From positions 2,617,189 through 2,681,188 of the forward strand of contig NZ_LT575483.1 in the NCBI RefSeq assembly GCF_900086705.1: a stretch of DNA of 64,000 nt. The letters are read 5' to 3'. The notes beneath the pieces are model-generated. The model worked only from the letters and a program-made list of their open reading frames with translations, did not search any database and had not been told where the DNA came from. Of the stretch, positions 43,984 to 48,969 are shown in pieces. Source of the DNA: Massilibacillus massiliensis (GTDB lineage Bacteria > Bacillota > Negativicutes > FLKF01). Numbering within the stretch: the stretch's first letter is position 1; each line of letters begins with the position of its first letter. The position numbers and the translations under genes are program-made.

Positions 43984-44010
43984 GGATGGTGACATTAAGT
44001 TGGCCAAACC
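43984..44010 (+). promoter_or_regulatory. RAT3: RAT-like element overlapping a Shine-Dalgarno-masking hairpin (porin)
   Basis: GGATGGTGACATTAAGTTGG continuing with CCAAACC, folding as GG/CC, GG/CC and CA/UG steps with two internal loops like known RATs. Its last CC starts the stem CCTTCAAGATT (44009-44019), which pairs with AATTTTGGAGG (44037-44047) over the porin ribosome site. No T run follows. Confidence 0.75.
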
Positions 44011-44054
44011 TTCAAGATTTGAATCATCAAATTTACAATTTTGGAGGGAAAACA

Positions 44055-45428
44055 ATGAAAAAAGAGTTAGCAGCATTGGGCCTTTGTACCGTGATTTTTT
44101 GTGGCAGCTTACAAGCCGAGGCCGCACCGGGGTTTTTCCAAGAAGTACCCACTGGCGACTGGTCTTATGAAGCCGTCAATGGGCTAATTGCTACAGGACA
44201 TGTAAATGGCTACACCGAACCGATACCACAAGGCCGTATTATGAGCCGCATGGAAATGGCCTTGGTTGTAGATGATGCCATGCAGAATCTCAAGGCATTC
44301 ACAGCTGGTGAGCAGGATACGATTCAGAAATTAAATAAAGAATATTATTATGACATCAAAAAGGTACAGATGTTATCGAAGCTCGACAATGCGGAGTTGG
44401 AAAAGGCTGAAAATGAGGTGAATGGCACGACCTTTACGGAAGAAGAAAAAGAGAGTCTCAAGAGAGCAGCAGCTTTGGCGGATAAACTTTCTATCAATGG
44501 CTATGCCCGCTTGCGCAACGATCACTTCCTAAAGGAGACGAAAAGGACGACCCGGGCAAATATGGTTCATGTGCAGGTTCAGACGACGTATAAGGTCGAT
44601 GATAATTGGCAAGTACATACCGATCTTGGCTATCGTAATTCTTTCAGCGGCTTTGATGAATTGAAATCTCTTTCGCCAAATGAAAATATGACCGGTACCA
44701 CTATGGATACCTATGTGACTGGTCGCATGGCAGACAATGCTCTCGGACTTAAAGTCGGCAAGTGGAATGAATGGAACGTTTACGGTTGGGGCATGGATAT
44801 CGACTGCGATTTCTCCGGTGTGCAGCTGGATTATGGTAAAAAAGATTTCAAGACCTATTTCACCACGGGTAAGATGGATCTTTGGGATGATGCCATGGGT
44901 GGGGACCGGAAGTATCAACAAGTTACCAGTTTGCGCTCCTTCTATCCGTTTGACGAAAAAAATGACATTAATTTCGGTGTTGCTTGGACCTCCGCTATGG
45001 CCAGCCGTTACCAAGATCCTGATCAAGGGCGTGTATTCTATTACTATGCCCATGCACGCCACAAATTTGACGACAACTGGAATGTTCGTGTGGGTCTCAT
45101 TGACAGCAACGCAAAACGAGATGACAATAACGTGGTTGCAGGCACCAAGACGAAACAGCCGGGCCGCTGGCTGCAACTGCAGTATAAGGGTGCCAACCTG
45201 CAAGCTCCCGGTTCTTATGGCATTACCACTACTTATCGCTATGAACCGGCGCTCAGCTGGCCAACGGTTACAGACTGGTGCGGACTCAATGAACGTTTCA
45301 TCCGCCTTGGCGTAAGCTGGGTACCGGCAAAAAATGTACTCTTTGATACCTTCTATACTTGGGCAAGAGAAATTGATACCGGTGAGAGAGATGACATGTT
45401 CCGCTTCCAGACACAGTTCTTCTTCTGA
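44055..45428 (+). CDS. OmpM-like porin with SLH domain
   Basis: 457 residues. ATG 44055 is the start: a signal peptide (1-23, cut near AEA) begins there and GGAGGG lies 6 bases upstream. Residues 26-75 are an S-layer-homology domain (FQEVPTGDWSYEAVNGLIATG..GYTE) that ties outer-membrane proteins of Negativicutes to the cell wall. A helical spacer (80-135) and a beta-barrel ending in FQTQFFF follow. It would let oligosaccharides or glucosides cross the outer membrane for the PTS of the same operon. Transcription is set by RAT2 and translation probably by RAT3. Confidence 0.9.
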   Translation: MKKELAALGLCTVIFCGSLQAEAAPGFFQEVPTGDWSYEAVNGLIATGHVNGYTEPIPQGRIMSRMEMALVVDDAMQNLKAFTAGEQDTIQKLNKEYYYDIKKVQMLSKLDNAELEKAENEVNGTTFTEEEKESLKRAAALADKLSINGYARLRNDHFLKETKRTTRANMVHVQVQTTYKVDDNWQVHTDLGYRNSFSGFDELKSLSPNENMTGTTMDTYVTGRMADNALGLKVGKWNEWNVYGWGMDIDCDFSGVQLDYGKKDFKTYFTTGKMDLWDDAMGGDRKYQQVTSLRSFYPFDEKNDINFGVAWTSAMASRYQDPDQGRVFYYYAHARHKFDDNWNVRVGLIDSNAKRDDNNVVAGTKTKQPGRWLQLQYKGANLQAPGSYGITTTYRYEPALSWPTVTDWCGLNERFIRLGVSWVPAKNVLFDTFYTWAREIDTGERDDMFRFQTQFFF

Positions 45429-45467
45429 TGAAGGAGTAGAAGAAAACCATAAAGGGAGATGCTTTGT

Positions 45468-46994: not shown

Positions 46995-47012
46995 GAGAAA
47001 AATCAGTTCTTT

Positions 47013-47039
47013 GGATGGTGACATTAAGTTGGCCAAACC
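47013..47039 (+). promoter_or_regulatory. RAT4: RAT-like element overlapping a Shine-Dalgarno-masking hairpin (PTS)
   Basis: All 27 bases are identical to RAT3. The final CC begins a 10-bp stem, CCTTCAAAAA (47038-47047) with TTTTTGGAGG (47051-47060), 3-base loop, one G-U. The 3' arm contains the GGAGG of the PTS gene, 7 bases before its ATG. No T run follows, so it is not a terminator. Confidence 0.8.
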
Positions 47040-47067
47040 TTCAAAAATCATTTTTGGAGGAATATTT

Positions 47068-48969
47068 ATGAAAAAGTACGAGGAGTTAGCAAAGGCCATC
47101 GTAAAGAACGTTGGTGGAGAAAAAAACGTTATATCGCTTGCACACTGCATTACGCGGTTGCGTTTCAAATTGCATGATGAAAGCAAGGCGAATACTGAAG
47201 TCCTAAAGAATATAGATGGTGTTGTCACAGTAGTGCAAAGCGGCGGGCAGTATCAGGTTGTCATTGGCAATGCAGTTGGTGATGTCTATGATACAGTTCT
47301 GGAGATTTCCGGAATTTCGGGCAGTGCGGGAGCCGGCGAAGCACAGGGGAAGGATTTAAGTCTGCTCGACAGATTCATAGACACGATATCCGGTATCTTT
47401 ACGCCGGTTCTTGGTGTATTGGCGGCCAGTGGTATGGTCAAGGGATTTACCGCTTTGCTTGTGGCTTTGTCGGTTGTTGATGCCAAAGGCGGCACATACC
47501 AAGTATTGACGACAGTCGGTGACGGATTCTTCTATTTTTTACCGGTTTTTCTTGGCCTTACGGCCGCACGCAAGTTTAAGATGAGTGAGTTCACCGCCAT
47601 GGCTGTAGGTGCAGCACTCGTTTATCCAACCCTTTCAGCTATTATGAAAGGGCAGACCCTGTATGAAGTGCTGGGCGGAACATTGCTTGCTTCCCAGATC
47701 AAGATTGAATTTCTTGGTATCCCGGTCATTCTTATGAATTATGCATCGAGTGTAATTCCTATCATCATCGCGGTTTATTTTGGGGCAAAGATTGAACGTG
47801 CGATCGCTAAAGTTATGCCGACAGTGGTGAAAGGATTCATGGTTCCGTTCTGCACGCTGCTCGTCGTTATTCCACTGACTTTCATCGTAATTGGTCCAGT
47901 GTCAACTTGGGCAGGACAGCTTGTTGGTGCAGCTGCAACAGGCATCTTCAATCTCAGTCCGGTTCTTGCCGGAATTTTTATTGGTGGTTTGTGGCAGGTC
48001 TTTGTTATGTTTGGCCTGCATTGGGGGCTTGTGCCAATTATGCTGAACAACGTATCAGTTATGGGGTTTGATCCGGTGATTGTTACGTATTTTGGTGCTA
48101 CTTTCGCACAGATTGGTGTCGTACTTGCAATTATGCTGCGCACGAAAGATAAAAAACTCAAAGCTTTGGCAGCGCCGGCATTTATTTCTGGTATTTTTGG
48201 TGTAACGGAACCCGCCATTTATGGTGTAACGCTGCCGCGCAAGAAATACTTTATTATCAGCTGCATCGGTGCAGCGATTGGCGGTGCCGTCATCGCGTTT
48301 TTCGGTGTAAAGCTTTTTGTTTTTGGTGGTCTTGGTATTTTCGGCTATCCTTGCTTTATTGATACGACAACGAATGATGTCAGTGGGATGTATTATGGTA
48401 TTCTTGCGTCGGCTATTTCCTTTATTGCCGGATTTGTGATGACCTTTCCCATTTATCGTGATGAGAAAACGGAACAATCAACGGTTCCTGCAGAGGGAAA
48501 AGGTCAGGTTGTAAATTGGGAAAGCATTAAGGCACCGGTTGCAGGACACATTGTACCGCTGGAGAAAGTACCGGACGAAACATTTTCTTCGGGGGTACTT
48601 GGCAAGGGCGTTGCGATTGATCCGTCCGAGGGGCGTATAGTTGCTCCGGCGGATTGTACGATTGTTACTCTTTTCCCGACTGGGCATGCACTTGGGTTGA
48701 TTACGGAAAAGGGCACAGAACTTCTCGTACATATCGGCATTGATACGGTGAAGCTTGAAGGTAAATATTTTACGGTTAAAACGAAGCAAGGTGAACATGT
48801 AAAAAAAGGCCAGACACTGATCGAATTTGATGTGGAAAAAATTAAGGATGCAGGATATTCGGTCGTTACGCCGATTTTAGTGACGAATCATGCACAATAT
48901 CTTGATATCGTTCCAACAGAGGAAAAGATAATTAAAGAAGAGGAAAAGTTGATTACAGTCGTTGTATAA
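47068..48969 (+). CDS. bglP: Beta-glucoside PTS transporter, fused IIBCA
   Basis: 633 residues from ATG 47068. Domain order: EIIB with Cys27 in [18 protein letters not shown], about ten membrane segments (residues 100-460), with [13 protein letters not shown] and [17 protein letters not shown] with His555 in [17 protein letters not shown]. It imports and phosphorylates beta-glucosides such as cellobiose, salicin or arbutin for the GH1 enzyme, and through phosphorylation of the LicT PRD domains it probably sets RAT control. It lies third in the operon, directly behind RAT4. Confidence 0.96.

Follow-up and report, generated by a model that had tools for sequence, protein, structure and literature searches.

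Putative LicT-controlled translational switches built from RAT elements and Shine-Dalgarno-masking hairpins in Massilibacillus massiliensis

The proteins of the BglG/LicT family are the textbook model of transcription antitermination, and to our knowledge all described cases of their RNA target, the RAT, are antitermination sites. Alternative pairing can also control translation. In translational riboswitches and T-boxes, it frees or hides the Shine-Dalgarno (SD) sequence, and the trigger is a small molecule or a tRNA. Meanwhile, TRAP is a case of one RNA-binding protein used for both termination and SD access: at trpE, it makes an SD hairpin form, resulting in repression.

In a 2015 review (PMC4347634), the sole role listed for the Bgl/Sac proteins is to stabilise antiterminators. 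NagY, a member of the BglG family, works on its own leader together with RNase III (PMC12502629). In the optogenetic tool LicV, the RNA-binding domain of LicT controls translation through a RAT in mammalian cells, by means of a fusion to eIF4E (PMC10885662). Among the ANTAR proteins, a translational mode has been reported in mycobacteria as repression by occlusion, involving RNAs that overlap the ribosome-binding site (PMC8164766). The first-pass annotation of the locus described here knew of no established RAT-gated translation, and we likewise found no report of it in the open-access literature searched.

RAT elements and genes around licT

We analysed a window of 64,000 nucleotides from the 4.0-Mb genome of Massilibacillus massiliensis (Negativicutes), in which four RATs surround a licT gene (Table 1). 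The product of this gene displays a CAT RNA-binding domain followed by two PRDs, which places it in the BglG/SacY/LicT family. It scored above the cut-off of the NCBIfam LicT model (NF046042), and its structure matches were the PDB entries of LicT (1tlv, 1h99, and 1l1c). The four PRD histidines used in phosphorylation control are all conserved and align with LicT in the motifs TDH, ALHIV, THLKFF, and IHI. The same genome holds a second CAT_RBD/PRD gene (L156; G000:C6:1621121-1621285, - strand), near which no site resembling the RAT consensus was detected, even at 3 mismatches.

Table 1 Features of the licT region, in window coordinates
Feature	Position	Strand	Remarks
RAT1	41275..41301	+	classic LicT-type RAT; reaches into the intrinsic terminator upstream of bglA
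Terminator overlapping the 3′ end of RAT1	41296..41352	+	T run present
GH1 glycosidase, bglA-like	41390..42811	+	PF00232, E 1.7e-132
LicT	42888..43724	+	CAT_RBD and two PRDs (PF03123, PF00874)
Promoter TTGACA-17-TATAAT of the leader with RAT2 and RAT3	43831..43859	+	read directly from the sequence
RAT2	43875..43901	+	terminator-type RAT, ...GGCTACACC
Terminator overlapping RAT2	43890..43950	+	followed by a T run
RAT3	43984..44010	+	27-mer identical to RAT4
Porin anti-SD hairpin	44009..44047	+	foot CC common to RAT3; SD GGAGG at 44043-44047
OmpM-like outer-membrane porin	44055..45428	+	assigned from predicted structure only
Sde182-type nucleoside-hydrolase-like protein	45468..46994	+	PF07632
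RAT4	47013..47039	+	27-mer identical to RAT3
PTS-gene anti-SD hairpin	47038..47060	+	foot CC common to RAT4; SD GGAGG at 47056-47060
Beta-glucoside PTS EIIBCA	47068..48969	+	TIGR01995, E 6e-223

The licT gene sits behind RAT1 and bglA. Downstream of it, the promoter places RAT2 at the 5′ end of a transcript in which RAT3 follows 109 nt later. As claimed in the first-pass annotation, RAT3 and RAT4 are identical (27/27 nt, with 0 matches in 100 shuffles), and the nearly identical RAT2, which differs at 3 positions, overlaps a real terminator. Allowing up to 3 mismatches, this 27-mer occurs at these three places only in the whole genome. The gene that follows RAT3 encodes a protein with no match in Pfam or NCBIfam; the top match of its AlphaFold model (mean pLDDT 75) was the Veillonella porin OmpM1 (E 5e-14). 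An Rfam search at gathering thresholds returned no RAT family in the window. Elsewhere in the window, two cobalamin riboswitch aptamers stand in tandem at 29348-29830 on the + strand.

Shine-Dalgarno-masking hairpins and their energetics

The last CC of RAT3 and of RAT4 had been read as the opening of a stem whose 3′ arm is the ribosome site of the next gene, a reading borne out by the minimum free energy folds. These folds gave a hairpin of 11 bp at RAT3 (44009-44019/44037-44047) and of 10 bp at RAT4 (47038-47047/47051-47060), each with GGAGG buried, and the 3′ arms are the SDs of the porin gene and of the beta-glucoside PTS gene, respectively. By folding, both sites have alternative structures one of which pairs the SD, as in translational SD-sequestering elements.

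Opening the SD is computed to cost 6.6 kcal/mol at RAT3 and 6.5 kcal/mol at RAT4, and 1.7 and 2.3 kcal/mol, respectively, once the RAT is enforced. The RAT state itself costs a computed 7.0 kcal/mol at RAT3 and 6.2 kcal/mol at RAT4. Because the RAT fold is thus 6-7 kcal/mol more costly than the hairpin, the leader would be off by default and would need help, presumably from LicT. RAT and mask share 2 nt, and what the hairpin loses when the RAT forms is just its two foot pairs, both C-G. Hence, the earlier notion that RAT folding and SD masking exclude each other stands for these two pairs and fails for the remaining 8-9 bp of the mask, which can persist in the RAT state. The residual cost of SD opening in that state is about 2 kcal/mol in the window and 4-5 kcal/mol in some relatives (up to 4.6). 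RAT1 and its terminator likewise meet mainly at AAAACC, and therefore a small overlap is normal for the family.

RAT-linked SDs differed markedly from other SDs. Across ten loci, opening cost more than 6 kcal/mol at 17 of 18 RAT-linked GGAGG sites versus 2 of 41 unlinked ones (Mann-Whitney p ~1e-7). When sites were labelled by RAT alone, TTTT preceded GGAGG at 31/36 RAT-linked sites versus 1/87 other SDs, and CCTYC occurred no more than 60 nt upstream at 31/36 versus 6/87. SD masking at RAT-linked sites is not a chance match. One of the two costly unlinked sites, at 8150 of the window, follows a single glycine riboswitch aptamer at a distance of about 150 nt; the stretch holding this aptamer and the strongly masked GGAGG spans 7914-8170.

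A role of these hairpins in transcription, through pausing or weak or Rho-dependent termination, would leave the RAT an ordinary antiterminator, in keeping with every described case known to us and with the fact that untranslated RNA may become a Rho target. We consider this improbable. Neither the RAT3 nor the RAT4 hairpin is followed by a T run that could serve as U-tract, in line with the first-pass view that they are not terminators, and their 3′ arms are SDs a few nucleotides upstream of a start codon. The terminator-type RATs of the same loci, in contrast, carry classic T runs, and in the window RAT1 and RAT2 are each overlapped by an intrinsic terminator with a U-tract.

The distance from the end of the RAT to the start codon (28-44 nt in the window) puts the RAT close to where the 5′ boundary of an initiating ribosome would lie. 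LicT might therefore repress translation by blocking the ribosome beside the SD, as mycobacterial ANTAR proteins do on RNAs overlapping ribosome-binding sites (PMC8164766). Such steric repression would make the conserved anti-SD stem that shares the last CC of the RAT needless, and LicT is expected to act positively at RAT1 and RAT2 under the same signal, on targets that are inducible uptake genes; we regard it as quite improbable.

Conservation, covariation, and licT leaders in Negativicutes

We surveyed 380 Negativicutes genomes, many of them closely related, among which the source genome is the sole member of its genus and family. RATs followed by CCTTC were present in 28 of these genomes, and 27 of the 28 encoded a CAT_RBD protein, versus 62 of 380 overall. 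Some 20 of the 27 have one CAT_RBD gene only, so one protein must serve both types of RAT. A RAT pattern without downstream requirement, searched with flanks, gave 114 RAT-like places around LicT loci, 99 of them non-redundant. By the rules used, 64 of the 99 had an SD mask, 26 a terminator, and 9 neither, with the mask counts biased toward the finding because the rule for mask sites demanded CC[CT][CT]C and an SD. Several of the nine look like terminator-type sites with a later T run, and another one (L026, 9826) masks a GAAGG SD. Close relatives that keep the RAT and lack the stem had been named in advance as evidence against translational control; the 64 sites keep the stem, and the rest are mostly of the terminator type.

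Mask sites were found upstream of orthologues of the porin, PTS, and licT genes of the window in Pelosinus, Propionispora, Propionispira, and Selenomonas. In the window and in G141 (L126), which also has the RAT2 variant, the porin gene is preceded by two RATs in tandem, one of the terminator type and one with a mask; in many Selenomonas a terminator-like RAT precedes a mask RAT before the PTS gene. At L151 (position 849, reverse-strand orientation) a RAT, mask, leader, and terminator lie before an alpha-L-rhamnosidase gene, a candidate new member of the regulon. In rumen Selenomonas (L029-L033), the RATs often display long additional apical stems. At L132 (G240) and L138 (G248), the CAT_RBD match is short (27 residues in a 75-aa frame), and RATs and masks are kept. 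The viral contigs contained no exact RAT; inspection by eye of six looser viral matches revealed no hairpin masking an SD, and they appear to be fortuitous.

Covarying RAT and anti-SD stems had been proposed for related genomes and were found in both elements. We counted pairs by arm register in a script because the MAFFT alignment misaligned the loops. The RAT is a conserved hairpin, GGATNGTNAC...GGCNAAACC, in which pair 5/22 is G-C 68 times, U-A 12, A-U 3, G-U 2, and C-G 2, that is, all four Watson-Crick types, as fits a target of the BglG type. In the mask, the Selenomonas licT leaders have G-C in place of A-U at pair 6, and both sides change in a compensatory manner at pairs 10, 11, 14, and 15 of the upper stem. 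Mask arms fitted their partners at 0.848 versus 0.752 for shuffled arms (sd 0.016). Covariation is limited in the lower stem, where changes are mostly to G-U on the 5′ arm; as the SD arm is fixed, the lowest pairs say little.

Identity of RAT3 and RAT4 at 27/27 bases within one genome could reflect copies spread by recombination, with incidental SD pairing. This is made exceedingly unlikely by the compensatory changes, by the presence of the arrangement at orthologues of three genes across several genera, and by the difference between RAT-linked and other SDs; covariation contradicts incidental pairing. It is also very unlikely that RAT and hairpin protect the mRNA or direct its processing at an RNase site with no gating of initiation. 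The NagY precedent, with its use of RNase III (PMC12502629), speaks for such a role, which gives no reason to expect the SD as 3′ arm or the CC of the RAT as foot of the hairpin.

The licT leaders of relatives display a RAT and mask, then a short ORF, then a terminator. In Selenomonas, this ORF has mostly exactly 10 codons (L132, L134-L138, L140, L142, L143, L145-L147, L149, and L150), with peptides such as MIGMDKARQI, MLDFRKTRQT, MFREMKAKFT, MYTMMKAEQA, and MFEFMKTRRS. In most Selenomonas, its stop codon, TAG or TGA, has a constant place within the 5′ arm of the terminator, so that codons of the short ORF make up this arm, as in leader attenuation. Exceptions are the rumen Selenomonas (L029-L033), whose licT leaders have a GTG-stop (start-stop) or an alternative GTG, and Pelosinus, where the ORF has 3 codons in one MAG and, in the other Pelosinus, 50 codons and an overlap with licT. 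We somewhat favour the reading that translation of the leader ORF prevents termination before licT, a translation-coupled antitermination of the regulator. We keep this as something we infer because the peptide shows no sequence conservation and the terminator constrains the choice of its last codons. In the window, 42811-42888 is a relic of such a licT leader: the 3′ half of the terminator is kept, and the RAT, the mask, and the 5′ arm are deleted relative to Pelosinus. The leader of G290, a genome with no CAT_RBD gene, has decayed and has no start codon.

Proposed mechanism and comparison with known systems

Based on these findings, we postulate that RAT3 and RAT4 are very likely LicT-controlled translational ON switches. 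The sequence-based evidence consists of the RAT, the mask, their conservation and covariation, and the predicted energetics; from it we infer LicT binding and the direction of its effect. Translational control by a BglG-type protein, as first proposed for this locus, is thus supported by conservation, covariation, energetics, and the co-occurrence with CAT_RBD proteins. By default, the anti-SD hairpin is predicted by folding to form, with GGAGG buried. Upon induction, an activated LicT dimer would clamp the RAT, whose terminal CC would pair with its first GG; the anti-SD hairpin would then lose its foot, and what remains may be weak enough for the ribosome to open, allowing translation of porin and PTS. 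At RAT1 and RAT2, LicT would act as an ordinary antiterminator, and expression of the porin would therefore be locked twice in succession, first in transcription and then in translation. This switch would, in relatives, also open the short leader ORF upstream of licT; as this ORF ends within the terminator, its translation would prevent termination.

Collectively, it seems moderately likely that one BglG-family protein and one RNA element have three outputs: antitermination at bglA and in the porin and PTS leaders, activation of porin and PTS translation through release of the SD, and release of a short leader ORF whose translation prevents termination before the protein's own gene. If true, the RAT would be a general RNA switch module that is wired to translation too, within one operon and under one protein. 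Diderm Firmicutes would then also provide a clear example of an outer-membrane porin under PTS-linked control, and the module would amount to a compact, portable translation switch gated by a protein.

LicV shares with this model the LicT RNA-binding domain on a RAT and an output in translation, but it is an engineered eIF4E fusion in mammalian cells with no SD switch. As in TRAP control of trpE, termination and SD access would be under one RNA-binding protein; TRAP forms the SD hairpin, whereas LicT binding would undo it. The freeing or hiding of the SD by alternative pairing is reminiscent of translational riboswitches and T-boxes, yet the trigger at RAT3 and RAT4 would be a phosphorylation-controlled protein. 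For a second mode acting on translation, the ANTAR proteins come closest as a precedent, although their reported effect is repression. The ANTAR-RNA systems (EutV in antitermination, the mycobacterial proteins in translation) are likewise an antitermination family with targets overlapping ribosome-binding sites. Protein and RNA are unrelated, however, the ANTAR target being a dual hexaloop, and ANTAR represses by occlusion, while activation by an alternative fold is proposed for RAT3 and RAT4. The antitermination systems of LicT, BglG, and SacY are alike in the CAT_RBD-PRD1-PRD2 protein, the RAT core, the beta-glucoside PTS target, and the terminal CC of the RAT as foot of the competing hairpin. 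They differ in that at RAT3 and RAT4 the competing hairpin masks an SD instead of terminating transcription, and in the porin target. RAT-gated translation would be a new output mode of a known protein and RNA family.
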